A stretch of 33,560 nucleotides of DNA from a virus, in the IMG/VR virus record IMGVR_UViG_3300042879_000585, positions 1-33,560 of that record. One strand, written 5' to 3'. Made by a program: the position numbers and the translations under genes. Below, in pieces: positions 5,932-18,226 of this stretch; position 1 is the stretch's first letter; the number at the start of each line of letters is the position of its first letter. The notes below the pieces were generated by a model. That model was not told where the DNA came from. It saw only the letters and a program-made list of their open reading frames with translations, and made no database searches.

Positions 5932-6437
5932 AAGAGAATTTCGACAAGTCGTTGGCTTTGATTCTGAAGCACGAGGGGCTGTGGAGCGACCACAGGGATG
6001 ATCCCGGCGGCGCCACTATGAAGGGCGTGACGTTGGCCAGCTTCTCAGAATTCAAGGGCCGGGCGATGGCCAAGGAAGAACTTCGCGCCATTTCGGATGC
6101 CGACCTTCACGCCATCTATAAGACTAAGTACTGGGATGCGGTACGCTGCGACGAACTGAAGCCGGGCGTCGACCTGTTGGCCTTCGACATGGCAGTCAAC
6201 AAAGGTGTGGGCCGGGCGGCCAAGCTAATGCAGCGGGCGGCAGGCGTCGCAGAAGACGGGGCACTCGGGCCTAAGAGTATGGCCGCCATCAATGCCATAG
6301 ACCCCCGCGACTTCATTGCTAAGGTATCCGAGGCGCGCCGTGACTTCTACAAAAGCTTGAAGACCTTTCCTGTATTTGGCAAGGGCTGGCTGCGCCGCGT
6401 AGACGAAACTGAAAAGGAAGCTTTGCATGCCGCTTAA
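5928..6437 (+). CDS. endolysin, glycoside hydrolase family 108 (N-acetylmuramidase-like)
   Basis: This enzyme degrades peptidoglycan at the end of infection. The 169 residues start with the GH108 signature: LKHEGLWSDHRDDPGGATMKG, where Glu16 is the expected catalytic acid and the DPGGAT loop is diagnostic. A middle helix region (DLLAFDMAVNKGVGRAAKL) leads to a C-terminal putative peptidoglycan-binding domain (about 85-165). The usual length of these phage lysozymes is 160-190 residues. No signal peptide is seen, so it depends on the holin just upstream. The GTG start at 5928 has AGGATGG at 5914-5920. The next gene starts inside its last codons. Confidence 0.93.
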   Translation: MKENFDKSLALILKHEGLWSDHRDDPGGATMKGVTLASFSEFKGRAMAKEELRAISDADLHAIYKTKYWDAVRCDELKPGVDLLAFDMAVNKGVGRAAKLMQRAAGVAEDGALGPKSMAAINAIDPRDFIAKVSEARRDFYKSLKTFPVFGKGWLRRVDETEKEALHAA

Positions 6438-6894
6438 GAAGGGTTCTTCCCAAAAGACCGTCAGCGCAAACATCCGCACTCTGGTTGAAGACTACACCAA
6501 GAGCGGACGCATTGGCACTTCGAAGCCAGCCAACAAGAAGGCAGCCGTCAAGCAGGCCGTCGCCATTGCGCTTCGCCAAGCTGGCAAACCTAAGCCCCAG
6601 AAGTATGCGACGGGCGGATCAGTTACCCGTACATCAACTTCAACGCGGACTGCAAGTCAAACGCGCAACCAGCAGGAAGAGGCGCCGCAGCGTAAGACTC
6701 CCGAGTATCTGCCGCTTCCCAACCAGTCTGGTCAGGTCGAAGATCAGTTCCCCAAGTTCGCGCAGACTCGCATGCAAATGCGTTTTACGCCTGAGCAATT
6801 CGATGTATCTAAAGGGCCAGCGGCAGCAAGACAACGCACTGCTATGCGCCGTGGCGGCCAAGTAACTCTTAACAAGAAATCTAGGAGAAAGTAA
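6427..6894 (+). CDS. basic protein with DUF6496-like N-terminus
   Basis: In these 155 residues the N-terminus (1-55) has the pattern KGSSQKTVSANIRTLV followed later by KQAVAIALRQAGK. I associate this with a short family, DUF6496, often described only as a small basic protein. The rest is low-complexity, rich in Thr, Gln and Arg, and probably disordered. It carries two x-G-G-x-V motifs (YATGGSV and MRRGGQV), which recur in the following genes and in the 921-residue virion protein on the other strand. The gene overlaps the endolysin and is followed directly by the next start, so it is in the lysis/late + strand block. Confidence 0.7.
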   Translation: MPLKKGSSQKTVSANIRTLVEDYTKSGRIGTSKPANKKAAVKQAVAIALRQAGKPKPQKYATGGSVTRTSTSTRTASQTRNQQEEAPQRKTPEYLPLPNQSGQVEDQFPKFAQTRMQMRFTPEQFDVSKGPAAARQRTAMRRGGQVTLNKKSRRK

Positions 6895-8133
6895 ATGGCT
6901 GATGATATTGGTCGTCCAGGCGAATACCCCGGCGACGTAGCCCGTAGGCGCCGCCGTCAAGGCATTCGTTACCGCGCCGCGCAGGCTGCCGCGAATCAAG
7001 GCTCCGGTCCCACAATGACGCCGTCCAACCAGTCGATGGTTCCCTACCAAGAGCGCCTGCCTACTGCGCCTGAAGGTGGTGGCCGTGGCGGTCCACCCGC
7101 TCCGTCCGGTGGTCGCGAAGTCGCCTCGCCCCGTGGCGAAAACCTGCCTGCTGTCCGCCGCGAAGGTATGCCCAGCATCCGTGTGCCACCCGGCGCTGCC
7201 GAAGCTATGCGCGGTGCGATGCAAAGCCCAATGGCCCGCGCGATGGGAACCGGACGGGGTGCTGCAATTGGCCGGGTTGCTGAAGGTGCGATGCGCCTAG
7301 GCGAAGCTGCCCGCCGCGCGTACCGTTCCATGCCTGCGCGCACACCCGACACGGGTCCTGACGAAGGTCCGGCTCGCCCTTCCATGCCGATTCCTAATAA
7401 TTTGCCGGACATGGAGCCACCTCCATACGAAGAAGCGCGGCGTCCCCGTCCCCGTCAGCAGCCTGCGCGTCGTCCGTCACAATCTGAAGCTGATGCCCTG
7501 AACCAGCGTGAGCTTGAGCGTATAGCTCTTGGTGCTGTTTTGAGTGACATGATGAAGGGCGGCTATGAACAGCCCGAGCGTGGGTTCTTCGAGCGCCTGG
7601 GTATTCGTCGCACCAACGAAACTGGCGAAGGCCGCCCCAGCACTGGCAACTTCCGCGAAGACATTCGCGAGCTTGGCCGCACCCTTGGCTTCAAGAAGGG
7701 TGGCCAAATCAAGTCCAAGACCATGATGAAGAAAGGCGGCAAGGTTATGAAGTACCGTGAAGGTGGTCCGATTCGTCAGGGCATGCAATCCCCGAAGGCC
7801 CAAGAGGGTCGTGCGGAAATGGCTGAAGATGTGATGCGTCGTGAACGTGCGCGTGAGCCGATCTCCGACAAGGCGCGCAAGGCTGCTCGCATGGAAGCTG
7901 GCATGGATAGCGGGCCGCTGACAGATGCCGAGAAGGAACGTATGCGTTCGTCTGGCTTCAAAAAGGGCGGCGCTATCAAGGCCCCGGCCAAGAAAATGAA
8001 GTCCGGCGGCAAGGTGCCTGCGCCCAAGAAGATGATGAAGGGTGGTAAGGTTGCGGCCAAGCCAGTCAAGAAGATGATGGGCGGCGGTCGTGCAATGTAT
8101 GCCAAAGGTGGCATGGCGAAAGGATGTAAGTGA
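6895..8133 (+). CDS. large basic Pro/Arg/Gly-rich protein with Lys-Gly-Gly repeats
   Basis: These 412 residues are mostly predicted disordered. Residues 1-200 are rich in Arg, Pro and Ala, and 203-260 may form a short helical domain (ELERIALGAVLSDMMKGG). Residues 266-292 and 355-412 carry eight repeats of the form x-x-G-G-x-V/I/A: KKGGQI, KKGGKV, REGGPI, KKGGAI, KSGGKV, MKGGKV, MGGGRA and AKGGMA. The C-terminus ends in Lys-Gly-Cys-Lys. The high positive charge would suit binding to DNA or to the peptidoglycan or membrane, but no enzyme motif is present. The ATG at 6895 directly follows the previous stop, with a good AGGAGA in front. Its stop overlaps the next gene. Confidence 0.8.
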   Translation: MADDIGRPGEYPGDVARRRRRQGIRYRAAQAAANQGSGPTMTPSNQSMVPYQERLPTAPEGGGRGGPPAPSGGREVASPRGENLPAVRREGMPSIRVPPGAAEAMRGAMQSPMARAMGTGRGAAIGRVAEGAMRLGEAARRAYRSMPARTPDTGPDEGPARPSMPIPNNLPDMEPPPYEEARRPRPRQQPARRPSQSEADALNQRELERIALGAVLSDMMKGGYEQPERGFFERLGIRRTNETGEGRPSTGNFREDIRELGRTLGFKKGGQIKSKTMMKKGGKVMKYREGGPIRQGMQSPKAQEGRAEMAEDVMRRERAREPISDKARKAARMEAGMDSGPLTDAEKERMRSSGFKKGGAIKAPAKKMKSGGKVPAPKKMMKGGKVAAKPVKKMMGGGRAMYAKGGMAKGCK

Positions 8134-8291
8134 TGGCTATGATGCGTTCTAATATGTCGAAGCAGGTTACGCAAGGCCCGATGAAAAAGAAGGCCGTGAA
8201 GATGCAGAAGGGTGGGTTCGTGCCGTGCAAGGGCTGCCCGAATCCGGCTGCATGCAAGAAGGCGGGCGGCTGCCTGATGAAGCGTGGCTAA
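8133..8291 (+). CDS. 52-residue Cys/Lys-rich peptide
   Basis: This is a very short gene starting at an ATG (8133) that overlaps the previous stop as TGATG. The N-terminus is Met- and Lys-rich, then comes MQKGGFV (the same x-G-G-x-V motif as in the neighbours), then CKGCPNPAACKKAGGC with four cysteines (C-x2-C-x5-C-x5-C). Four cysteines in 16 residues suggest a small zinc knuckle or disulphide-linked peptide. No family is recognised. Coding is supported by the tight overlaps at both ends (the next gene begins at 8284) and by a composition matching the adjacent proteins. Confidence 0.7.
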   Translation: MAMMRSNMSKQVTQGPMKKKAVKMQKGGFVPCKGCPNPAACKKAGGCLMKRG

Positions 8292-8466
8292 GACCCCGTC
8301 CCGCGTCAACGAAGCAGGCGTCTACACTAAGCCGGGCATGAGGAAGTCCCTCTTTGAAAACATCAAAGCAGGTGGTAAGGGCGGCAAGCCCGGCCAGTGG
8401 TCAGCCAGGAAGGCGCAGATGTTGGCGCAGCAATACAAGGCGAAGGGCGGCGGCTACAAATCATGA
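8284..8466 (+). CDS. small conserved basic protein
   Basis: These 60 residues start at a GTG inside the previous gene: AKTPSRVNEAGVYTKPGMRK, then GGKGGKPGQWSARKAQ and QQYKAKGGGYKS. I recognise the GNPGQWSARKAQ-like core as a small protein family that is frequent in environmental phages and some bacteria. I am not sure of its Pfam name and the function is unknown. The protein is strongly basic with aromatic residues spaced along it, which suits nucleic-acid binding. It ends in an ATGA overlap with the next gene. Confidence 0.7.
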   Translation: MAKTPSRVNEAGVYTKPGMRKSLFENIKAGGKGGKPGQWSARKAQMLAQQYKAKGGGYKS

Positions 8467-8708
8467 AGGCCCCGCAGAAATCGCTTGTTGATTGGACCAA
8501 GCAGAAGTGGCGAACCAAGTCTGGTAAGCCATCAACTCAGGGACCGGAGGCTACAGGTGAACGCTATCTACCAGAAGCTGCAATCAAAGCTATGCCAGCT
8601 AGTACATATGCTGCGTCGTCTGCTGCCAAAAGGAAGGCGACAAAAGCAGGTAAGCAATTCTCAAAGCAACCCGCCTCTGCCGCCAAGTTAGCCAAGCGAT
8701 TCCGTTAG
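8463..8708 (+). CDS. small conserved basic protein
   Basis: I choose the ATG at 8463, overlapping the previous stop as ATGA, which gives 81 residues. An upstream in-frame ATG at 8397 lies in the preceding gene. The sequence SLVDWTKQKWRTKSGKPS, then GERYLPEAAIKAMPASTYA and KAGKQFSKQP, is a conserved pattern in small phage and bacterial proteins. It may be related to the DUF5872 group, though I am not certain of the name. It is highly basic and no function is known. Its TAG (8706-8708) overlaps the stop codon of the convergent glycan-enzyme gene on the other strand. Confidence 0.72.
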   Translation: MKAPQKSLVDWTKQKWRTKSGKPSTQGPEATGERYLPEAAIKAMPASTYAASSAAKRKATKAGKQFSKQPASAAKLAKRFR

Positions 8709-10849
8709 AACGGATACTCCGTCGGTGCAGTGTAGTTGTTGACGGTCTGCTGCCAGATTGCCGCGCCCGCGCCGTCGCCGTGGAACGTGACGTTGATGCG
8801 GTTCTCTACTAGCCACTTGTTCCACTGACCTAGGTCCTGCATAGCAGCGACCAGTTCGCCCGTAGTCAGGTAGGATTTCTGGTCGGCGCCTAGCGTCACC
8901 TTCATGAAGGATTGCTTGACGTCGTCCTGCTTGGTTTCTTCTGGGTAGAAGAAGTCATAGCCGTAGAAGTCGAAGCGCCGGAAGCCCATCACGAAAGCCA
9001 GCATTGGGATACGGGTGGCGGAGCAGGTGCCGCCCATAACTACCGTGCCAGTGTCGAAGGCCGGGGGCCGGGCCTGTAGCGTGGCGTTAGTGTGTGCATG
9101 CCAGCCGTACAGTTGGGCGCCCTTCCCTTCCAGATAGGTGCGTACTGACGGGTGGGTCATCGTTGCAAACAGGAACTTATCTTCCGACCCGGCGTCAGCG
9201 AACAAGTCGGTTCTGATAATGCCGTGCGTGGACTTGCCGTCGATTGGCCGTGGGTCCAGAATCACGGTCCAGTCGGGGGTGATGCCCGCCTTCTTTAGGG
9301 TAGGGAAGGCATGCTTGACGGTGAAGACAGTGGCACCCTCGGCTTGCCTGCGTTTGATTTCGTCAAGGTATTGGGGAATGGTAGGCCCGGCGCTGACGAA
9401 GATCGCGGTCTTGGTGTGGGCCTGATAGTTACCAATCCACTTCTGGAGGGCCTTCCCGTTTTCAGCAATGTGTTGAAGCTGCTCGCCTTTATCGACGGAA
9501 TCGACAGGCTTGACTTGGATGCGGGTGCGGAGGTCGGGCATTGGGAAACCGGGCCGCACCACAAGCCCAAAGGAAATGGTTTGCTTCAGGCCCGCGTAAC
9601 CGTCGCCGCTAGTGATCATGCGCTTCTGACCTTCGGCTTCCGTCCATGTGCGGATGGGGCCTTCGGGTGCGCCTTCTTCGGGCTGGGCAATCACGTCGTC
9701 GAACACTACGTAGGGGACGTGCATCAGGTGGTGGTAGTCTGACTTGGTGGTTTCGTAGGAGTGGCCGCCGTCAATGTAGGCGAAGGTGGCTTCCTTTACT
9801 ACTTGCCCAGACTTGGGCAGGGTTTCGAGAGTGTTACCTTTTATCAGAGTGTAGTCAAAAGTCAAGCCCTTGCGGGACATGAGGCGGCTGTAGTTGTTAA
9901 GGCGATTGCCCACCAGCCAGGAGTTGGCGTGTGGTTTGGTGTGGCCTTCGTGGTTGCGGTCGTTACCTTCTTCGAAGGTGTCGAAGCCTACATAGGATAC
10001 TTGGGTGGCGCCCGCAGCGAAGGCACACTCGGCCATATGGATGGCGCGGCTACCATTCCACGTACCGACTTCAACGATGTTGGCTTTACCCGTCGCCTTG
10101 ATGGAAGCGGTCAGCAGTTCGCACAGCGTTTCGTAGCGGGCCGGAGCGCCCAGTGCCGGATTGGCGATGGTCTGCTTGTCCGGGCCCTTGTAATGGATCA
10201 TATAGGCGCCCAGGGTCGATTGATGGAACGCATCCAAACCCAAGGCGCCCGGCGACAGGTCCTTCACCAGAAGGCCGTGGGCGCGGTGCAGCAGGACTAG
10301 GCGGTCAAGGACGGCGTTGTCGTGGGCCTTCTTGTAGTGGAAGGCTTCGAAGGAATCGTACAGGCCCCAGTAGTCGGCCAGCAGCGATGCGCCCTTGACA
10401 GTCGCCAAATTAAATGCGAACCATGAGCCTTCGCTTTCCGCAACAGACTTACGGTAGAGGTAGGTGAGATGGACCTTATCGTCAAAAAGTTGCTCCAACA
10501 ATTGGGAGTCGACGTGCCGCATAGCTTCCGTGTCAGCGTCGATGAAGCCAATCCAGTCAAGTTCCGGCGTTACCGAGGAAGCCAACGCTACAGCCTTGAA
10601 GCAGTACTGGAGGGACGGGCCGTCTTTGGCTTCGCTACCCAGTCGCGCTTTGAGCTTATGGAAGGAAGCCGTGTCTTCCAATGCACGGAAGGTGACGCCC
10701 TCGAATGACGGGACGTTGTCGCCCAGGTCATGGTGCCAAATCTCCAGGGGGATGTCGGCAGGCCAAAACTTCTTGTAGGATTCGGCGAAGCGGCGCCCGT
10801 AGGTTTCCCAACCTTTGGGGCCAATGGTCGTGACGATTTTAGCGCGCAT
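8705..10849 (-). CDS. three-domain glycosyltransferase / SAM methyltransferase / MptE-like (DUF115) fusion
   Basis: The 714 residues fall into three parts. Residues 1-230 look like a GT-A glycosyltransferase domain, with WIGFIDADTEA (DxD at 104-106). Residues 235-410 resemble a class I methyltransferase of the small macrocin/Methyltransf_24 kind: NIVEVGTWNGSRA (257-269) for SAM, AYIDGGHSYE (357-366) and VVFDDV (381-386). Residues 475-714 resemble the DUF115/MptE-like Rossmann domain: TAIFVSAGPTIPQYL (481-495), then PDWTVILDPRP (525-535) and a late FYGYDFFY. DUF115 domains occur in flagellin-glycosylation (Maf) proteins and in archaeal MptE. The gene is last in the - strand operon, overlaps the neighbouring glycosyltransferase by 11 bases, and probably works with it to build or change a glycan on the virion or host surface. 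Domain limits are approximate. Confidence 0.78.
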   Translation of the reverse strand: MRAKIVTTIGPKGWETYGRRFAESYKKFWPADIPLEIWHHDLGDNVPSFEGVTFRALEDTASFHKLKARLGSEAKDGPSLQYCFKAVALASSVTPELDWIGFIDADTEAMRHVDSQLLEQLFDDKVHLTYLYRKSVAESEGSWFAFNLATVKGASLLADYWGLYDSFEAFHYKKAHDNAVLDRLVLLHRAHGLLVKDLSPGALGLDAFHQSTLGAYMIHYKGPDKQTIANPALGAPARYETLCELLTASIKATGKANIVEVGTWNGSRAIHMAECAFAAGATQVSYVGFDTFEEGNDRNHEGHTKPHANSWLVGNRLNNYSRLMSRKGLTFDYTLIKGNTLETLPKSGQVVKEATFAYIDGGHSYETTKSDYHHLMHVPYVVFDDVIAQPEEGAPEGPIRTWTEAEGQKRMITSGDGYAGLKQTISFGLVVRPGFPMPDLRTRIQVKPVDSVDKGEQLQHIAENGKALQKWIGNYQAHTKTAIFVSAGPTIPQYLDEIKRRQAEGATVFTVKHAFPTLKKAGITPDWTVILDPRPIDGKSTHGIIRTDLFADAGSEDKFLFATMTHPSVRTYLEGKGAQLYGWHAHTNATLQARPPAFDTGTVVMGGTCSATRIPMLAFVMGFRRFDFYGYDFFYPEETKQDDVKQSFMKVTLGADQKSYLTTGELVAAMQDLGQWNKWLVENRINVTFHGDGAGAAIWQQTVNNYTAPTEYPF

Positions 10850-11606
10850 TGTAAGCGTCCGTGAGTTCGTTGGTCCAGAAATTATCGAAGGGCGTAGGCT
10901 CCCGGTTGGTCATGCCCGGCACAGGCGGCCCGAACGTGAAGTGGACGGCGTCCACCGGAACGGGTTTGTTCTGATCTTCGGCGGCCTGAGCAGCTTCCGT
11001 CGTCGGGCTGTAGTTGGGAATCCAATGCCAGCGTTCAGACAGGTAGCCGATGTCACTGTCGTTCAGCCAAGCAAAAGTATGGAGGTGGTTGCCACTGGCT
11101 TCGTTCACCATCTCGACGGTGGGCAACTTGTTGGACTTTAGGTTCCAAAGCATAAGGGCCGACCACATCTTCCGCTTGTAGCGGGACTGGACTTGGCCAT
11201 CCATCTTGACGGTCTTGTCTGGTTCGAAACGATGTGGTACCACCATCACCGTCTTGCTGCTATCAGCTTCTTGGAGAATCTTATGGATGTCGTTAAGCCA
11301 CAGCCAGTCGCAATCCGTGAACAGCGCCCAGTCAGTGACGCCGTCAAGCTTGGCGACGATGGGCGTGAGGAAGCGGGTGTGGGAGAACTGTACACTGAAT
11401 GGCTTGCCGTCTCGCTCGTCGGTGTAAGTGCCGTCTTCGTTGATACGCCATGGACGGTCGAAGAGTTGACGGCGGCGCAAGTCGATGTGTTCTAAGCGTT
11501 TCACTTCGACAGGCTTGCTGGCGTAGGCACGGACAGACGCCTCGGTAACTCGCAGTGCATCCGGTTCGCGGTGGTCTACGCCAATGTAGTAGGCAAACTT
11601 TGACAT
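10839..11606 (-). CDS. GT-A fold glycosyltransferase-like protein
   Basis: In these 255 residues, the N-terminus AYYIGVDHREPDALRVTEAS is the first beta strand and nucleotide-binding loop of a GT-A (GT8-like) fold. FSHTRFLTPIVAKL and then WALFTDCDWLWLND supply the DxD-type metal site (Asp-Cys-Asp). A late HFTFGPPVP could bind the second phosphate. It would transfer a sugar from a nucleotide donor; donor and acceptor are not readable. The start at 11606 is predicted to be leaderless from the promoter just upstream. Shine-Dalgarno-like AGGAAG is too far away, at about 16 bases. It overlaps the three-domain enzyme, so the two probably act together. Confidence 0.78.
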   Translation of the reverse strand: MSKFAYYIGVDHREPDALRVTEASVRAYASKPVEVKRLEHIDLRRRQLFDRPWRINEDGTYTDERDGKPFSVQFSHTRFLTPIVAKLDGVTDWALFTDCDWLWLNDIHKILQEADSSKTVMVVPHRFEPDKTVKMDGQVQSRYKRKMWSALMLWNLKSNKLPTVEMVNEASGNHLHTFAWLNDSDIGYLSERWHWIPNYSPTTEAAQAAEDQNKPVPVDAVHFTFGPPVPGMTNREPTPFDNFWTNELTDAYNAR

Positions 11607-11612
11607 GCCGCT

Positions 11613-11641
11613 AGGATAATAGTCTTCCTGCGTTTTGTCAA
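11613..11641 (-). promoter_or_regulatory. sigma70-like promoter for the glycan genes, predicted leaderless
   Basis: On the - strand a perfect TTGACA (11636-11641) is followed, after exactly 17 bases, by TATCCT (11613-11618, 4/6). Six bases then separate it from the ATG at 11606, so the expected start site is the A of ATG. This is the same geometry as the promoter at 4648-4676. It lies in one of the few intergenic gaps in the arm. Confidence 0.6.
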
Positions 11642-11654
11642 CAAGTTAGTTAGG

Positions 11655-14600
11655 TCACTGACGCTCGCGCCAGCGGGCTTCTTCGGCAATCCGTGCAGCT
11701 TCTTCACGGGCAGGAACGCGGGTCTGGCGGGTAAGCACGGCGGGGTTGCCCCGGCCAGCGTAGTCTTTCTGCGCCCGGTCAAGGATAGCTTGCGGGTTTA
11801 GGTTTACGCGCTGGGCAACAGGTTTGCTTTCTTGCTGTTGGGCGATTTCAGCGAACCGCTTTTGGTATTCTCTGTAGAAGCGTTCGACGTCTTGTTCGCG
11901 CCCGGCTGCCTGCGCTTCCAAAGCCCGCAGCAGAAGGCGGGAAAGCTCTAGGTTGGCGCGTTCGGTGGGGTCGCGGTTTATACGGCGCAACTCGTCTACG
12001 CGGGTAGCCCCGCGCCGGATGTCAGCAAACTCAGGCGGCACAAAACCAATTGCCTGTTGAATTGCCGGAGGTAAGAAGCCTGTCTGTGATGCTTTGTCTA
12101 CGTCTGCGGGGGAAATCATGCGCTCGCCGCCGCGCGTCCACTGTTCTTTGTTGACTGCAATCTCCGCGCCCTTGGCAATGTTTGCCAAAGCGTTAGGCAT
12201 GAACGACACTAGCGCGCCCCAAGGGTCGCCTTTCTTCCAGGCTTGGAATGTATCTACGGCTTTGCTTGCAAGCCCGCCTACGGGACCGAAGAACGAAAGA
12301 ACATCCCAATCAGAAACGGAGCCTTGGGGTAGCGGGTCGATCTTAAGGCGTGAGTTCAAGCTCAAGGTACCGGAAGCGTGGGGCAAGCCGTAGCTGAACA
12401 TGGACGCCAGGAAGCCGTTGCCGAGGGCGCGTTCCAGTTCCTGTTCGAAGTCGGTGGCGTTTTCAAATGCCAGCTTCAGAATGAATTCGGCAAGTTCGCG
12501 GATGCGTTCTGCCAGTGGCAGCGACCATACACCAGCCAGGGCGACTTGGGTTGAAAGCATGGCAGCAAATTGAATGGCGCCCGCCTTGGCCATGACTGGA
12601 TCGCTTTGGCGCAGGCCGCGAATTGTCTGGGCCGCGCTTCGAGTGTATAGTTCCAATATCTTAAAGACGGGGCCTTGGAACTGAGTGGCGGCTTCAGCAA
12701 TAGGGTGGAAGCGTTGGATCAGGGCACGGTCTTCTTTGGTGCTGCGGAAGTTCGTGTCGCTTGTGACGCCTTCAGCGTAGTCGTAGGGTGTAGCGTAATT
12801 ACGGTTGTCGAGTTTGCTGGCGCGGGCCATCACTTCGGGGCGCGCTTTTGCAAGACGGTAAGCTGCTAAGAACGCAGTCACGCGGTTGGTTTCGTCAACT
12901 GCCGAAAGCATCTTGCCCGACAAATCAAGTATCTTGTTGGCGTTCTTGGCGAAGGTCGTAGCGGACTTGTCAGCAATACCAGCCTTACGCATTTCATCAG
13001 CGGAGAAGGTGCTGCGAAGTTCGACGGCTTGCACTGGATTGATGCGACCGTCTTTCACGGCCCGCCTCAAAGCATTGACTTCGTCGGCAGTCAATACACC
13101 CCGCTCAATTAACTTCTTGGTGTAGTCAAGTTCCTTGCCCAAGGATTTCATTACGTCGAGTGTGCCGTATACATCTTTGGCAGCAGACGCCGAGTAGCGC
13201 AGGGCGCTGGCCCCGGCTCCGTCGCGAAGCAAGCGCGGTACCATCACGGTCGGGTTCTGCGTAAACTGAATGACGGCGGTACTGAAGTTGAAGCCTAGGA
13301 ACCAGAGGAAGGCAAGCGCGCGGCCCGTACCGAAAGCTTCCGTCGGGGTGGATGCGTAATTGAAAGTGTCGTTCCAGTATTGTTTTTCTTCGTTGCTATA
13401 CCCATCTAGTGAATTGTTGAAGTCATCGCGGACGGCTTCACGGGCCTGCAACTTACTGGCTGCAATGATGTAGTTGGGCACTGTATCGCGGATGTAGTCA
13501 GTCGCGTTCTCAGGGGTGACGGCGCGCAGCAAGTCGTTGTTGGGGCGGAACATCCGTTCCATCTGCGCCTTCTTAATTTCTTTGGTCATACGGTCAATGA
13601 CTTGCTTGGCTTCGGCGCCACTGACCTTGCTCAGTTCTTGTAGCCACTGGGCAATAAAGTCACCGTCACGACGAAGGTTGTTGGCGTTTTCGTCCCTTGT
13701 GGCTTCCATGCCCCGCTCCATGACGTAGAAGCGTTTGCTGTCGGGGAACTCTTCACGCAGGCGTTTGACAGCGATGTCTTCGAAGTTGCGCTGTAATCCA
13801 ACAGCTTGCCTGACCCTACGGATATTGCGCGCAGGATCGTAGAAATAGATGCGGACTAGGCGCTTTTTGTTGCCGGGCAGTTTCTCGTAAGCGGCAACGA
13901 AGTGGCTGCCCTGGGCGATTTGCGGGAAGAAGAACGCATCCCGCCGCCTTTCATAACGCTTTACTTCTTGGTGGCCAATGGGTGAGGCTGCCCTAACTTC
14001 TTCATCAGGCATCTCTCCGATAAGGCGGTCGCCCTTCTTGCGCTGGAAAGCTTCGAGGCGCGCACGATCTTCATCAGTCTTTGCCAACGCTGGGTTGAAA
14101 TAGCTTGCTGTAGACGAATCAACATAAAAGTTAAACAAGCTTTGAAAGCTACGGAGGATGCCGTCCATCGCCGCGTTTTCTTCGGGCGAGAAGGCAGCAC
14201 GATCCCACATCTGCTGCCTGCTGCGGGCGTCTTGCAATGCCAAAGCAATGCGGGCCTGCGACTCGGCAGACAAACGTAACGCAGGTTCGTATGCCTCCGT
14301 AGACTGTGTCAAGGCTTGGTGGTTGCGAACATAGAAGCGGTCCAGTTGGTCCGCCGATTCTTTGTATATAGGATTCTTGCTGTAAGTTGCAATAGGGGAA
14401 GCAAACCACTTACCCATGAATCCGCCCCGGAAACCGTCGACAATCTGCTTATCAAGAGAAGCTTGAAGGTTCTTGATTGGTGCATTATCTGGCGGGGAAA
14501 ACAGCGCCTCTTCTACCGTATCGGTAGTCTTACCTGCGCCCGATTGCGGATCAGCAGCAGCGGCAGCAGCAGCAGGCGTATCACCAGCAGGCGCGGACGC

Positions 14601-16559
14601 TGGGGTTGGTTGGGCAGCCGGAGCGGCAGGGGCTTGGCGGCGATTGATGAAATCGTTATAGACTTGGTCGCGCGCTTCGGGAGTGGCTGCCGCGCTGGAT
14701 TGTTGCGCGAAGTCAATGAACTCAGGCCGTGTGAAGGGGCGTTGGCGAATGGCCGCGATGTTGCGAGCCTGCGCTACGAAGGGACTGCGCGCCTGCGGAC
14801 CAGCGTTCAAGGAATAGCCGCGCCATAGAGCAGCTTCGTCTTGTGGTTGAATTGGGGCGGCGGGCGCTTCGGCCCCCATGCGCTGCATGGTTTCAGGTGT
14901 TAGAGTGCCAGTCGCAAGCTGTTCATTGAAGGCAGCGATTTCCTGCTGTACGTCAGTCTGCGTAGGTGGCGCGGGAGCGACGGGTTCGGTGGCGACTGCG
15001 AAAGTTTTGGGCGATAACTTGCGAAGGAAGCCCGCGTCGGCAAGTGCGTTGAGTTGTTCGGATACGGCTTTCTGTTCGGCGCGCGAAGGGCGGCCAGGGT
15101 CGAGATCACGGGCACCGAGGGCGGCGCGAGCAACGTCAGCAGGCGTGAAGGAGTTTAGATTGACGTTGGCAAGTTGCGCGTTTTCCGCAAAATTGCTAAT
15201 GAAGTCAGAGGCTTGAGCTTGGCGGCTGGACGGAGCTACCGTCTCTGCGTCTGCTTCTTGTGGGGGCTTGGCAACGAATTCGTCAATGGCCCGCTGGCGC
15301 ATGTCGGTTGAAGCTTGCTGCCAGTCAGCTACGCGCGCAGCATTGACGAAGGCCACGGTAGCTTCGGGTGTGGCGAGGGGGACAGGCGGCGTGAAGCGCG
15401 GGTTCTCGGCTAGGAAGGCTTCGACCTGATCGACAGAAGCTAACGGTTCCGGGCGCGTCGGCATAGTAAGCGGCTCAAAGCGCGGCGCGGGCGCAGGTTC
15501 AGGTGTAGGTGTGGCTTCTGGGGCGGGCGGCGCGGGGGCAACGCCAACGGCAGGCACTGACCCACGGGGCACGGGCGCAGGTTCGGGCGCGGCTTCTGGG
15601 GCGGGGGCAGCTTCGGGTGTGGGGCGCGCACCGAAAGCACCACGCGCGGCACCACCAAGAACGCCACCAGCGATTGCGCCCCCAAGGCCCGCTTCCAAGT
15701 ATTCGCGGTTGGCTTCGGGGCCTGTGATGGGAAGTCCGGCTTGGTAGCGTTCGATTGCAGCCTGCGGCACTTCGGCAAGGGGTTCGGTTGCGGCGCCTAC
15801 ACCAGCACCACGAAGTAGGCGCTGGCCTAGCGAGCCTGCCGCTTCCGTGACGGGGCGCCCCAAGAAACGACCTGCGCCCAAGGTGGCAATGTCAGCGGCG
15901 CTTTCAAGGGCGACCTGGGGGATGGCGGCAATAAAGGATTCGCCGGGGTTAGGGATTTGCGTGACTTCAGCAGGAGTTACGCCTAGCCGCTTAGCTTCTT
16001 CTTCGACTTTGCGTTGGATGTTGGCGCCTGCCGTGGGTAGGAAGCCCGCGCCTGAAGCGCCAAGGAAGCCGCCGAGTAGGGCACCGCGCGCACCAGCCCG
16101 CGCACCAAGACGCGCACCAGCTAGGGCGCCGCCGATTCCGGTAGCGGTTTGGGGAAGGGAGCCTGTGACGATTTCAGCAGCAGCGCGCCCGACGTCGCCA
16201 GGGCCTTGCGTTTCTAGGATGGGTGTGCGAAGAGCCTGGGGCTGGGCAGCTTCAGCTTGCAGCGCCTGTTCAATGCGGCCCTCGCGCCCGAATTGCTGAA
16301 GGCTCGGCATGTTGAGCGATTGGCCCAGACCTTCGGCTGCTGAATATAGTTGGCCTTGGAATTCGTCGACGGCGCGGGAAGCACCTTGCGTGATGGAACT
16401 GCCCAAGCCTACTTGGGTGCGCCGCCAGCTTTCAAATTCTTGTGGGAACGCAGACCGAAAGTATTCGCGGGCGCGGGCTTGGACTTGCCGCTCGACGCCG
16501 GGAGGTCCTTCAATTTCTACGATAGTGCCGTTAGGTAACGGAACTTCATATAAGGGCAT
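11655..16559 (-). CDS. very large internal virion / DNA-ejection protein
   Basis: The 1634 residues make it the largest protein here. Residues 1-100 are a short mixed domain (EVPLPNGTIVEIEG near the start). Residues 130-310 are Gly/Ala-rich zipper-like segments (for example GARLGARAGARGALLGGFLG) that could insert in membranes. Residues 313-362 and 643-675 are Pro/Ala linkers. The C-terminal 950 residues are mostly helical, with RNIRRVRQAVGLQ and ALAFLWFLGFNFSTAVIQF as recognisable stretches of large phage ejection proteins. I see no transglycosylase ESxxxxSA-type motif and no nuclease motif. In podoviruses such proteins sit in the capsid core and leave with the DNA to bridge the envelope. It lies downstream of the tail genes and begins in a TAATG overlap with the 214-residue gene. 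Confidence 0.75.
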   Translation of the reverse strand: MPLYEVPLPNGTIVEIEGPPGVERQVQARAREYFRSAFPQEFESWRRTQVGLGSSITQGASRAVDEFQGQLYSAAEGLGQSLNMPSLQQFGREGRIEQALQAEAAQPQALRTPILETQGPGDVGRAAAEIVTGSLPQTATGIGGALAGARLGARAGARGALLGGFLGASGAGFLPTAGANIQRKVEEEAKRLGVTPAEVTQIPNPGESFIAAIPQVALESAADIATLGAGRFLGRPVTEAAGSLGQRLLRGAGVGAATEPLAEVPQAAIERYQAGLPITGPEANREYLEAGLGGAIAGGVLGGAARGAFGARPTPEAAPAPEAAPEPAPVPRGSVPAVGVAPAPPAPEATPTPEPAPAPRFEPLTMPTRPEPLASVDQVEAFLAENPRFTPPVPLATPEATVAFVNAARVADWQQASTDMRQRAIDEFVAKPPQEADAETVAPSSRQAQASDFISNFAENAQLANVNLNSFTPADVARAALGARDLDPGRPSRAEQKAVSEQLNALADAGFLRKLSPKTFAVATEPVAPAPPTQTDVQQEIAAFNEQLATGTLTPETMQRMGAEAPAAPIQPQDEAALWRGYSLNAGPQARSPFVAQARNIAAIRQRPFTRPEFIDFAQQSSAAATPEARDQVYNDFINRRQAPAAPAAQPTPASAPAGDTPAAAAAAADPQSGAGKTTDTVEEALFSPPDNAPIKNLQASLDKQIVDGFRGGFMGKWFASPIATYSKNPIYKESADQLDRFYVRNHQALTQSTEAYEPALRLSAESQARIALALQDARSRQQMWDRAAFSPEENAAMDGILRSFQSLFNFYVDSSTASYFNPALAKTDEDRARLEAFQRKKGDRLIGEMPDEEVRAASPIGHQEVKRYERRRDAFFFPQIAQGSHFVAAYEKLPGNKKRLVRIYFYDPARNIRRVRQAVGLQRNFEDIAVKRLREEFPDSKRFYVMERGMEATRDENANNLRRDGDFIAQWLQELSKVSGAEAKQVIDRMTKEIKKAQMERMFRPNNDLLRAVTPENATDYIRDTVPNYIIAASKLQAREAVRDDFNNSLDGYSNEEKQYWNDTFNYASTPTEAFGTGRALAFLWFLGFNFSTAVIQFTQNPTVMVPRLLRDGAGASALRYSASAAKDVYGTLDVMKSLGKELDYTKKLIERGVLTADEVNALRRAVKDGRINPVQAVELRSTFSADEMRKAGIADKSATTFAKNANKILDLSGKMLSAVDETNRVTAFLAAYRLAKARPEVMARASKLDNRNYATPYDYAEGVTSDTNFRSTKEDRALIQRFHPIAEAATQFQGPVFKILELYTRSAAQTIRGLRQSDPVMAKAGAIQFAAMLSTQVALAGVWSLPLAERIRELAEFILKLAFENATDFEQELERALGNGFLASMFSYGLPHASGTLSLNSRLKIDPLPQGSVSDWDVLSFFGPVGGLASKAVDTFQAWKKGDPWGALVSFMPNALANIAKGAEIAVNKEQWTRGGERMISPADVDKASQTGFLPPAIQQAIGFVPPEFADIRRGATRVDELRRINRDPTERANLELSRLLLRALEAQAAGREQDVERFYREYQKRFAEIAQQQESKPVAQRVNLNPQAILDRAQKDYAGRGNPAVLTRQTRVPAREEAARIAEEARWRERQ

Positions 16560-17215: not shown

Positions 17216-18226
17216 TTAAGAAGCGGGATTGTAGATGCCAAGCTGCTTGCCAAGTAAGCGAAGGTTATCAAGGAAAGCAGGGCCTTGCATGATGCCGCCA
17301 GCAAGAGCGGAGAGGAGGTCACGGCCCGGCGCGGTTTCGGTTTGCTGCTGGCCGAGGCCGAGGGTAGCAGACGGCAGGCCAAGGGTAGAACGCAGGGCCG
17401 AGATGCCGCGCAGCGGATAGTCACGCTCTTCTTCGAACTGCTGGCGCATGACGTCTAGTTCGGCCTGTTCGCGCGCTTGTTGGAGGCCGCCCGTCGACAG
17501 GAGAGGATTGACCATGGAGCCGAGGGCGTTTTGGGTTTGCGAAAGGCCCGTGCCAAGCTGGCCTTGGGCTGAAGCGTATAGGGCCGGAATCTTTTCTTGA
17601 TCTTTGCGGAACTGATCGAGAGCTTGATTGTAGGCAGCGGCGCGTTCCTTGGCGGAGATGTCACCAATGTTACGCTGGGTGCCGCGCTCCAATTCACTTT
17701 CTGCAATGGCTTGACGGGAGCCGCCGAAGGAACCAGTGCGGGCGGACTGCTGACCGAGACGAAGACGTTCCTTAGCGGCGCGCTCTTCAATGTCACGGAT
17801 CGCCGGGTCAAGGACCGCCTGCGTGTAGGGTGACATGTAACCGGAAAGGTCGGTTTCGGGCAGGGTGGTGGCGAGGCCCGTAGTAGCGGAGATGCCTTGC
17901 GTTGTAAGACCGGGTGTCAGGGCGCTTAGGCCGCCAGCTTGCGTAGCAAGACCGCGCGTAGCTTCGAAGGCCCGCTGCTGGTCAGGGGTGAACTCGGCAA
18001 CGCGCTGAACGGGATTGCCTTGGGCGTCGACGTAGGGTTGGAAAGGTTCGGCGGCAAAGCCACGAGTGCGGGCAAGCAGTTCCTCGCGCGTGTCGACAAC
18101 GGATTGCGGCGTGGTTGGGGTCGTAATCCGGGAGGTTTGCGACGGACCTACGCCAAGAAGACCGCTAAGCGCACCTTGCGTGGTGGCGGGGGCACCTCCC
18201 AAAATGGAACTAAAAAAGCCGCTCAT
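17216..18226 (-). CDS. conserved virion protein, probable ejection or tail component
   Basis: Typical of a virion protein conserved in podoviruses, the 336 residues hold PFQPYVDAQGNPVQRVAEFT and then YMSPYTQAVLDPAIRDIEER, followed by LGQQSARTGSFGGSRQAI. This central block is the most recognisable part. The rest is Gly/Gln-rich with amphipathic helices (about 195-300). No signal peptide or enzyme motif is seen. The gene starts in an ATGA overlap with the 921-residue gene and ends 12 bases before the 214-residue gene. It therefore lies in the block of probable internal virion genes, and a candidate promoter lies about 320 bases upstream. Confidence 0.65.
   Translation of the reverse strand: MSGFFSSILGGAPATTQGALSGLLGVGPSQTSRITTPTTPQSVVDTREELLARTRGFAAEPFQPYVDAQGNPVQRVAEFTPDQQRAFEATRGLATQAGGLSALTPGLTTQGISATTGLATTLPETDLSGYMSPYTQAVLDPAIRDIEERAAKERLRLGQQSARTGSFGGSRQAIAESELERGTQRNIGDISAKERAAAYNQALDQFRKDQEKIPALYASAQGQLGTGLSQTQNALGSMVNPLLSTGGLQQAREQAELDVMRQQFEEERDYPLRGISALRSTLGLPSATLGLGQQQTETAPGRDLLSALAGGIMQGPAFLDNLRLLGKQLGIYNPAS

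Follow-up and report, generated by a model that had tools for sequence, protein, structure and literature searches.

A recurrent two-gene cassette of uncultured viruses encoding a predicted glycosyltransferase and a glycosyltransferase-methyltransferase-Maf-like fusion

The window analysed here, a 33,560-base stretch of viral DNA that is its source IMG/VR record in full, carries two adjoining genes, P2 and P1, which, as judged by sequence comparison, are a conserved unit that recurs in many uncultured bacterial viruses. P1 joins a GT-A glycosyltransferase, a SAM methyltransferase and an MptE/Maf-like domain in one polypeptide, and P2 is a second, predicted glycosyltransferase. We suggest that the two proteins are a cytosolic enzyme pair that builds a methylated glycan, with a virion protein as the likely acceptor, a reading to which we give an even chance of being right. 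We found no published account of what P2-P1 cassettes do.

Organization of the locus

The features of the locus, with the evidence for each, are as follows.

8705..10849, minus strand: P1, 714-aa fusion of GT-A glycosyltransferase, SAM methyltransferase and MptE/Maf-like domain (ORF, Pfam, AF2 model and fold matches, dN/dS)
10157..10849, minus strand: P1 domain 1, residues 1-231, GT-A glycosyltransferase, DAD at 104-106 (fold matches, residue conservation)
9545..10156, minus strand: P1 domain 2, residues 232-435, class I SAM methyltransferase resembling sugar O-methyltransferases (Pfam, fold matches)
8747..9511, minus strand: P1 domain 3, residues 447-701, MptE/Maf_flag10, PF01973 (Pfam, fold matches)
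10839..11606, minus strand: P2, 255-aa predicted glycosyltransferase of a GT8-like family, TDCD (D98, D100) (phrog_28018, family Pfam matches)
11613..11641, minus strand: putative sigma70-type promoter TTGACA-17-TATCCT before P2 (conservation)
11655..16559, minus strand: internal virion protein-like gene, 1634 aa, phrog_11358, adjoining P2 upstream

The 714-aa ORF of P1 is uninterrupted and in the window overlaps that of P2 by 11 bp. Comparison with 18 relatives of 64-98% identity gave dN/dS ratios of 0.05-0.19, indicating that P1 is a real gene under purifying selection. No segment of either protein is as hydrophobic as membrane helices typically are (maximum KD19 of 1.39 and 0.93 for the two proteins). 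A BFVD search with our first AF2 model returned UniProt A0A6J7X5Q0, a 714-aa protein of an uncultured Caudovirales phage that is 82% identical to P1 and is named 'Methyltransferase domain containing protein'; P1 is therefore not a previously unseen protein.

The strand that carries P2 and P1 also holds, between 33505 and 11655, the genes for terminase, portal, capsid, adaptors and an internal virion-type protein, and the pair forms the end of this virion operon, where a preliminary description of the sequence had placed it. A 921-aa protein encoded within the operon (18223-20988) has 14 Ser/Thr residues within a 25-residue segment and might be an acceptor, an observation that is suggestive only.

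The three domains of P1

Full-length P1 was modelled with AF2 on 39 diverse homologues (mean pLDDT 85.6, pTM 0.51); at this pTM the domains are confident and their relative placement is not. An earlier, weak model (mean pLDDT 65.1) drew on 19 close homologues; it was used in the BFVD and first PDB searches and was then superseded. The later model supports all three folds that the preliminary description had named in the fusion, and Pfam agrees for domains 2 and 3. The motifs read from the sequence at that time are also in place (DAD at 104-106, VEVGTWNGS at 259-267, IDGGHSYE at 359-366, VSAGPTIPQYL at 485-495 and PDWTVILDPRP at 525-535).

The first 220 residues of P1 had no credible Pfam match, so the GT-A call for domain 1 rests on structure. 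Residues 1-231 of the AF2 model matched two structures at Z 15.1, glycogenin 6eql (194 residues aligned, rmsd 3.4) and the PBCV-1 capsid glycosyltransferase 2p6w (183 aligned, rmsd 3.2), and Foldseek matched LARGE1 and alpha-1,3-galactosyltransferases (E 5e-8 to 1e-7). A domain-1 profile run against PDB sequences retrieved nothing up to E 1. Domain 1 of P1 has both the fold and the DxD of a GT-A enzyme. The first aspartate of the DxD is present in 62 and the second in 60 of 63 representatives, and the full motif is missing from 3/63 GT-A domains. The VIA fold-match lists consisted mostly of methyltransferases, so that the lack of other folds there carries little weight.

Domain 2 matched Methyltransf_24 at residues 259-377 (E 5.7e-9), scoring 37.2 bits against a cut-off of 26.3. 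The same profile matched 31 of the 39 homologues with an E of at most 0.01; four of the 39 have no such domain. The sugar O-methyltransferases CalS11 and SpnH (both Z 16.8), MycF (16.6) and NovP (16.2) headed the methyltransferase rows among fold matches to the AF2 model. TylF (PF05711) was matched by 8/39 homologues at E 0.01 or better, and P1 of the window fell below its cut-off (14.2 vs 23 bits). Judged by fold, D360, D384 and D385 may be the counterpart of the Mg-binding Asp triad of MycF and NovP. All three are present in the window and in 50, 56 and 50, respectively, of the 58 representatives that have domain 2, with at least one missing in 10/58.

Domain 3 is the most conserved part of P1, its VKH, DPR, STH, GGT, TGEL and QD motifs being invariant in 63/63 representatives. 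PF01973 (MptE-like) matched residues 458-637 with E 5.5e-16 and 59.2 bits against a gathering cut-off of 34.6, and each of the 39 homologues was matched with an E of at most 0.01. In sequence searches, bacterial Maf (E 1.8e-4) and archaeal MptE (M. jannaschii HPPK; E 2.3e-4) were about equal, and the match to the NCBIfam model of PseD, a Maf (NF050051), was confined to the central residues 468-640 and scored 35.9 bits against a cut-off of 670. For these two reasons we call domain 3 Maf-like and not a Maf, which refines the tie to Maf proposed earlier for this MptE/DUF115 domain. A flagellin gene was absent from 17/17 viral records.

P2 and its promoter

P2 belongs to phrog_28018 (E 4e-50), a family of unknown function. 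The window P2 itself has no Pfam match, whereas Glyco_transf_8 (PF01501) was matched by 3/8 members of its family (best 4.9e-9), and D98 and D100 do not vary among the 11 close and 8 diverse members compared. P2 is a putative GT8-like glycosyltransferase, a prediction made from sequence. Its homologues occur in 18 phage records.

P2 had been thought to have a promoter of its own, and conservation argues for one: of 18 aligned sequences, the window among them, 16 retain TTGACA-17-TAT[C/G]CT, and column conservation reaches 0.97 and 0.93 within its hexamers, compared with 0.58 for the spacer and 0.59 for the upstream region. A plain promoter scan of 8000-12500 gave 2 promoter-like sites against 1.4 expected, no excess by count, so the case for the P2 promoter is made by conservation and not by the number of sites. 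Only 6-7 nt (6 nt in the window) separate the end of the -10 box from the ATG, a spacing from which it appears that the P2 transcript may be leaderless. A promoter of its own would also be expected of a host-modifying gene.

Distribution of the P2-P1 pair

At least 573 IMG/VR stretches, counted with any redundancy among them, encode a relative of domain 3. Among the matches listed in a domain-3-seeded scan we kept 80 loci, which tally as 18 near loci, L105 and 61 distant loci. By the domain-3 seed alone, and again among the matches listed, 51 of the 61 distant loci are complete; P2 lies directly upstream of P1 in every one of these 51, and 50 keep all three P1 domains. At 90% identity the complete loci fall into 30 clusters; single-linkage clustering gave 12 at 70% and 8 at 50%. 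P2 is present in 25/25 near loci with a complete P1. With all seeds pooled, P2 seeds included, the end of P2 and the start of P1 either overlap or are no more than 60 bp apart in 90 of 91 loci, a tally in which some overlaps are overlong because P1 starts are partly first-start-codon calls. The seed sets share contigs (for example L101/L273 and L120/L280) and so are not fully independent. The preliminary description was therefore right about the overlapping second glycosyltransferase, a pairing which is conserved, and the three-domain order that it had singled out was found in many other viral contigs.

Several cases needed separate handling. An antisense ORF masked P2 in L266, L267, L285 and L291, and a partial P2 lies at the start of L296; a six-frame search found all five. 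The fetched DNA contained no MptE-like ORF in 39 of 78 distant P2 loci, several of which stop soon after P2; these 39 include L117, L118, L131 and L146, where the gene caller also missed P2. L152, whose C-terminus is cut, was counted among 28 fusions and excluded from the alignment.

No fused copy was found by tblastn in 50,697 phage records, nor did domains 2 and 3 alone match any of these records at E 0.1; among distant fused queries, L154 retrieved only two GT-A-domain records and L161 none. GTDB genome contigs accounted for 0/303 stretches with the close alignment, in a short-pattern scan that divergent cellular relatives may escape, and for 2/91 with the diverse alignment, also by short-pattern scan. 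Both of the latter are phage-like contigs: that of L249 carries a holin, terminase small subunit, endolysin, ribonucleotide reductase and virion protein, and that of L250 a holin and ribonucleotide reductase.

Gene neighbourhoods and unfused relatives

An internal virion or virion structural gene precedes P2-P1 in the window, L119 and L102, and in the distant locus L119 a phrog_11358 gene again lies upstream of P2; in L145 a portal gene follows the pair. The cassette adjoins ribonucleotide reductase in L113, L161 and L249, so its link to virion genes is not universal.

In some relatives the parts of P1 are separate. L145 has P2, then GT-A, then a methyltransferase-MptE gene, and L132 has P2, GT-A, methyltransferase and MptE as individual genes. 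The cluster of phage CcrColossus comprises a tail gene, an MptE-like gp126 (31.8 bits, just below the 34.6 cut-off), the P2 homologue gp129, a methyltransferase-like gp130 (25.3 vs 27 bits) and a GT9 gene, and DLP_6 has consecutive genes for a methyltransferase, a P2 homologue and a GT29 sialyltransferase-family protein.

A mannose-6-phosphate-isomerase-type cupin motif was found in 20/78 distant P2 loci and a nucleotidyltransferase motif in 4/78, and Pfam confirmed five such genes in three loci. Neither motif occurs in the near family (L002-L037) or in 50 GT-A-seeded loci. By these neighbours, sugar metabolism is linked to part of the family. We also considered a lysogenic conversion module and set it aside, as no integrase was found in 14/14 viral records, window counted, although these may be fragments; the only integrase-positive entry among the 14 records of one search was the bacterial assembly holding L250.

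Proposed function and alternatives

We infer the enzyme activities, the order of steps, the sugars, the acceptor and the benefit of P2 and P1 as follows. The two proteins, probably translationally coupled, would act as a cytosolic glycan assembly line of a tailed virus. P2, as a GT8-like enzyme, would add one sugar, the GT-A domain of P1 would add another, and the central domain would O-methylate a sugar, like TylF-type sugar methyltransferases. The Maf-like domain would be a glycosyltransferase that transfers a sugar, perhaps one of nonulosonate type to Ser/Thr of a protein, as bacterial Maf does. The most likely acceptor would be one of the virion proteins, which are produced in the same cytosol by the operon whose end P2-P1 form, and the outcome would be a methylated glycan on the particle, which might shield it from receptors or proteases or improve adsorption. 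The active-site residues lost from some methyltransferase and GT-A domains suggest that some lineages can do without the second or third step.

In the literature consulted, few phages have been shown to glycosylate their virions with enzymes of their own. The present cassette would be tied to protein O-glycosylation through its Maf-like domain and to glycan capping through its methyltransferase. Should the proposal hold, particles of many environmental phages would carry methylated glycans, with consequences for adsorption, grazing and neutralisation.

In the next most likely reading, though one that we think rather unlikely, P2 and P1 would instead act in the cytosol on host flagellin or on a glycan of the host surface, for instance in a superinfection block, as the preliminary description had suggested, or in decoy receptor shedding. 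Bacterial Maf proteins O-glycosylate flagellin (PMC11339370), and some relatives of the cassette lie beside sugar-nucleotide genes. The conserved sigma70-type promoter of P2 points the same way, since with it expression need not follow the late operon. However, no membrane helix is predicted in either protein, and in the window the pair ends the virion operon. Glycan-based host conversion is, moreover, mostly a trait of temperate phages. The lack of integrase in the 14 viral records stands against such conversion, as reported for temperate phages in PMC12619734.

Domain 3 might also be a pyrophosphokinase like archaeal MptE, in which case P1 would make an activated small molecule and domain 3 would transfer no sugar. 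PF01973 bears the MptE name, the M. jannaschii HPPK sequence matches as well as Maf does, and the structural match of HPPK (8sd5) to P1 447-691 (Z 16.1, 196 aligned) is tighter than Maf's, with an rmsd of 3.1. Yet Maf tops the structural matches, the NCBIfam match is to the flagellin-modification protein PseD, albeit below cut-off, and in complete P1 proteins, encoded beside P2, domain 3 shares the chain with a glycosyltransferase domain and in most cases with a methyltransferase of sugar type. We consider the pyrophosphokinase reading improbable.

The classical DNA glucosyltransferases of T4 belong to the GT-B and not the GT-A fold, and DNA glycosylation is not known to involve a sugar O-methyltransferase or a Maf-like domain; both points count against a cassette that glycosylates the phage's own DNA (hypermodified bases). 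This we regard as highly improbable, for although DNA-glycosylating phage glycosyltransferases exist (PMC12619734), no thymidylate-synthase-type base hydroxymethylase was found in 21/21 viral records (window counted; these may be fragments).

Comparison with known systems

By analogy, the nearest functional counterparts would be PBCV-1 A064R for the cassette and bacterial Maf for domain 3. The PBCV-1 major-capsid glycosyltransferase entries 2p6w, 2p72 and 2p73, which match P1 1-231 with Z about 15, are presumably A064R domain 1, as judged by their title and year. A064R acts as a rhamnosyl-, rhamnosyl- and methyltransferase on the glycan of the PBCV-1 major capsid protein (PMC9614988). Like P1, it combines glycosyltransferase and SAM methyltransferase domains in one viral protein, and it completes a methylated capsid glycan (PMC9614988). 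The domain orders differ, however, A064R being GT-GT-MT and P1 GT-MT-MptE/Maf-like, so P1 does not have the A064R arrangement; the second domain of A064R is described as a new GT family (PMC9614988), and the system is an N-glycan of an algal virus.

Among phages, CcrColossus, Pelagibacter phage Mosig and Stenotrophomonas phage DLP_6 have P2 homologues (32-41% identity) near methyltransferases, partnered by an MptE-like gene in CcrColossus, a GT29 gene in DLP_6 and a GT-A gene of the P1 domain-1 family in Mosig. Unlike P1 these clusters are unfused, and their genes are annotated as hypothetical or putative. Mycobacteriophages Che8, Corndog and Myrna encode glycosyltransferases that modify their own capsid or tail tube (PMC12363180); those enzymes differ from P1 and P2, and the available text of that paper mentions no methyltransferase/Maf-like fusion. 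Two further papers were discarded: PMC12839542, a prefix match to DUF115, treats another domain, and PMC6811365 concerns host genes.

Domain 3 shares its fold with archaeal MptE/HPPK 8sd5, but the latter is a pterin enzyme of about 240 residues, whereas the context in P1 suggests glycan transfer. In Maf, the PF01973 domain resembles the sialyltransferase Cst-II and follows a degenerate Rossmann domain whose similarity to methyltransferases is weak (PMC11339370). Maf residues 16-502 (5mu5) align with P1 215-701 (VIA, Z 20.7, 343 aligned), pairing a methyltransferase and an MptE-like domain in the same order; the rmsd of 13.4 over these 343 residues shows that the pair of domains does not fit as a single rigid unit. 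P1 differs from Maf in its apparently intact methyltransferase, its extra GT-A domain and its score below the PseD cut-off. A tentative and, in our view, doubtful extension is that a tandem of sugar methyltransferase and glycosyltransferase is ancestral, that P1 keeps it in active form in viruses, and that its methyltransferase decayed in bacterial Maf and again in some viral lineages; phages would then carry a Maf-like O-glycosylation machine together with GT-A enzymes, and would methylate the glycans of their particles. Such a link would offer a route to the former role of the orphan N-terminal domain of Maf.

A conserved gene pair closes the virion operon

The virus record is 33,560 bases long, identical with the window. 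Its minus-strand virion operon begins at the terminase, continues with portal, capsid, SU10-type adaptors and a 618-aa virion protein, and goes on to DNA-ejection-like and 1634-aa internal virion-type proteins. It terminates with P2, a putative GT8-like glycosyltransferase, and then P1, a fusion of a GT-A glycosyltransferase (domain 1), a SAM methyltransferase (MT, domain 2) and an MptE/Maf-like PF01973 domain (domain 3).

33505-32732, minus strand: terminase, start of the virion operon
11641-11613, minus strand: promoter TTGACA-17-TATCCT, in front of P2
10839-11606, minus strand: P2, 255 aa
8705-10849, minus strand: P1, 714 aa

P2 and P1 overlap by 11 bp in the window, and neither shows a membrane helix. 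The P1 motifs and coordinates of the preliminary description, which had proposed this fusion beside a second glycosyltransferase, proved correct against the open reading frame (ORF). Nearby, a 412-aa protein (6895-8133, plus strand) without a PHROG match has a high content of Lys, Gly, Met and Arg and repeats of KKMMKGGK/MKKGGK-like stretches; the adjacent ORFs at 6427-6894 and 8397-8708 look basic as well.

The only exact match to TTGACA-N17-TATNCT in the window is the P2 promoter. Allowing at most one mismatch gave 2 matches against 0.27 expected, a number equalled in 3 of 100 shuffles. A plain promoter scan of 8000-12500 returned 2 sites against 1.4 expected, and the halves of the window held 9 and 12 promoter-like sites compared with 6.5 and 6.4 in shuffles. 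An alignment of 18 sequences shows TTGACA-17-TAT[C/G]CT in 16, the exceptions being L023 (TTGACT...TATAAA) and L062 (TTGAAG...TAAACT), and the hexamers are much better conserved than the spacer or upstream flank. Near-family loci (close P1 relatives) with an exact match have a single one each, at P2. The end of the -10 box lies 6-7 nt from the P2 ATG (6 in the window), which suggests that the P2 message is leaderless.

P1 combines three recognizable folds

Both Methyltransf_24 and MptE-like matched P1 above the Pfam cut-offs, with nothing credible N-terminal to Methyltransf_24; Pfam gave no match in P2, and NCBIfam returned a partial P1 match to the flagellin-modification protein PseD, far under its cut-off. 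A first structure model of P1, from 19 close homologues, was poor. With 39 diverse homologues, mean pLDDT rose to 85.6 with a pTM of 0.51; thus, the model can be relied on for the individual domains but not for how they are arranged relative to one another. By VIA-align, residues 1-231 are a GT-A fold, matching glycogenin and a PBCV-1 capsid glycosyltransferase at the same Z of 15.1 (rmsd 3.4 with 194 aligned and rmsd 3.2 with 183 aligned, respectively). Residues about 230-435 matched CalS11 and SpnH (both Z 16.8), MycF (16.6) and NovP (16.2), and residues 447-691 matched archaeal HPPK (Z 16.1, rmsd 3.1, 196 aligned). The top row was Maf 5mu5 (Z 20.7 over 215-701, rmsd 13.4, 343 aligned). Foldseek agreed, ranking Maf first (E 1.9e-9), with LARGE1 at 4.8e-8 and alpha-1,3-galactosyltransferases at about 1e-7. 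The fold assignments made earlier from sequence were right. Profiles run against PDB sequences found Maf (E 1.8e-4) and HPPK (E 2.3e-4) about equally for domain 3, weak matches for domain 2 (best MeT1, E 0.015), none for domain 1, and one weak match, WbbM (E 0.067), for the P2 family.

The P2-P1 unit recurs among uncultured viral contigs

Scanning IMG/VR with P1 found 36 loci, 71-98% identical. The P1 gene is complete in 25, all 25 of which have P2; the remaining 11 start inside the gene at a contig end. L062 is a further relative, 64% identical. Between the window P1 and 18 relatives, dN/dS was 0.05-0.19.

A P2 profile incorporating distant phage homologues found at least 581 relatives among 600 stretches. 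Among the best 80 of these, 78 were distant. A three-domain P1 directly follows P2 in 28 of the 78 (L152 being cut at its end) and is interrupted by the contig end in 2 more; 4 lack the methyltransferase but keep GT-A and MptE-like, 1 encodes GT-A and MT-MptE in two genes, the MptE-like ORF is farther away or weak in 4, and no such ORF was seen in 39. These three-domain homologues are 27-35% identical to P1, with E as low as 3e-121.

Domain 3 alone found at least 573 relatives among 599 stretches. In the best 80, 61 were distant, 10 of them cut at the contig start. The 51 complete loci (30 clusters at 90% identity) have the GT-A/MT/MptE-like order in 50 cases and GT-A/MptE-like in 1, and P2 lies upstream of P1 in all 51 (46 by gene call; a six-frame search added 4 behind an antisense ORF and 1 partial). 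Pooling all seeds, the two genes overlap in 72 of 91 complete loci; a gap of no more than 60 bp separates them in 18 and one of 564 bp in 1, with P1 starts partly first-start-codon calls. The P2-P1 unit is real and widely recurrent among uncultured viral contigs.

Conservation was read from 63 representatives (90% identity) of 92 full-length proteins. In domain 3, VKH 511-513, DPR 532-534, STH 540-542, R546, GGT 606-608, R613, G622, D632, TGEL 663-666 and QD 671-672 are invariant in 63/63. Domain 1 lacks a complete DxD in 3/63, and at least one of D360, D384 and D385 is lost in 10 of the 58 representatives having domain 2; these three Asp may form a metal site like that of MycF and NovP. On this pattern, domain 3 and P2 look like the core, with the methyltransferase optional. 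Seven loci (L158, L161, L166, L172, L173, L174 and L249) have lost methyltransferase catalytic residues with domain 3 intact; L166, L172 and L249 have also lost the GT-A DxD.

Related parts occur as separate genes

In phage CcrColossus, a tail gene is followed by MptE-like gp126 (31.8 bits, slightly below the 34.6 cut-off; annotated sialyltransferase-like), gp127, gp128, the P2 homologue gp129, gp130 (Methyltransf_23 at 25.3 bits, below the cut-off of 27) and a GT9 gene. Mosig clusters two FkbM methyltransferases, homologues of P1 domain 1 and P2, a sulfotransferase and a protein with weak similarity to DUF6716 (17.5 bits, cut-off 27). DLP_6 has consecutive genes for a methyltransferase, a P2 homologue and a GT29 sialyltransferase-family protein (31.8 versus 23 bits). 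L132 and L110 combine P2 and methyltransferase(s) with cytidylyltransferase-like and mannose-6-phosphate-isomerase-type domains; GT-A and MptE-like are separate in L132 and joined in L110. These neighbouring genes favour a shared sugar pathway for the parts.

A motif search of the 78 distant P2 loci (among the best 80) found cupins in 20 and nucleotidyltransferases in 4; neither motif occurred in 50 GT-A-seeded loci or the near loci L002-L037, which thus have no sugar-nucleotide genes detectable this way. Cytidylyltransferase-like and/or mannose-6-phosphate-isomerase-type cupin genes lie close to the cassette in L106, L107, L110, L132 and L250. In L106, L115 and L250, where the methyltransferase domain is missing, a 230-304-aa gene without a Pfam match comes next.

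The virion is the most likely acceptor

As a coupled pair with one sugar methyltransferase and two or three glycosyltransferases, P2 and P1 would most likely build a short glycan, onto which the P1 methyltransferase domain would place methyl caps. According to PMC11339370, the central PF01973 domain of Maf resembles the Cst-II sialyltransferase; because P1 has a Maf-like domain, a role for domain 3 in protein O-glycosylation is plausible. The most likely acceptor would be the virion, the nearest cytosolic protein target, since no membrane helix is seen in the pair, which stands last in the virion operon, and 14 viral records, window included, yielded no integrase. Counting against this, some relatives adjoin ribonucleotide reductase. 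Glycosylation of DNA by the cassette is unlikely: a thymidylate-synthase-type gene was seen in none of 21 viral records, some or all of them possibly incomplete.

The 921-aa tape-measure-like protein (18223-20988, minus strand) has a Ser/Thr/Val/Pro-rich stretch, with 14 Ser/Thr in 25 residues from residue 264. It is conceivable that this stretch is an O-glycan acceptor.

Comparison with known systems

At tblastn sensitivity, fused P1 occurs in none of 50,697 phage records, two of which have a domain-1 homologue. GTDB genome contigs gave two P1 matches, both on phage-gene-bearing contigs inside metagenome-assembled genomes: L249 (PAKP01000072.1) and L250 (PANU01000007.1), binned as Sneathiella and Flavobacteriaceae genomes. 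Both carry a holin and ribonucleotide reductase, and L249 also a terminase small subunit and endolysin; we read them as phage contigs, or prophages binned with their host. UniProt contains A0A6J7X5Q0 from an uncultured Caudovirales phage (714 aa, 82% identical to P1, generic name), and listed alongside it are further uncultured-phage proteins, MptE-like and 540-700 residues long. The matches listed in the phage glycosylation, MptE-like/DUF115 and FkbM literature, covered mostly by title and abstract opening, include no description of the GT-A/MT/MptE-like fusion or of the two-gene conservation.

A bolder reading comes from Maf, in which, according to PMC11339370, PF01973 is preceded by a degenerate Rossmann fold that weakly resembles methyltransferases. 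VIA-align places Maf 16-502 on P1 215-701 in the same domain order. On this reading, P1 would be Maf's tandem with a working methyltransferase, and the loss of catalytic residues in the seven loci would parallel a loss that Maf may have undergone; since the rmsd is high and Rossmann folds are widespread, the likeness could be coincidence.

Virus-encoded glycan machinery as a kind is already known. PBCV-1 has eight glycosyltransferase genes, expressed early, and the three domains of its A064R extend the capsid glycan by two rhamnoses and one methyl group (both from PMC9614988). A064R is thus a precedent for the glycan building and methylation proposed here for P2-P1.
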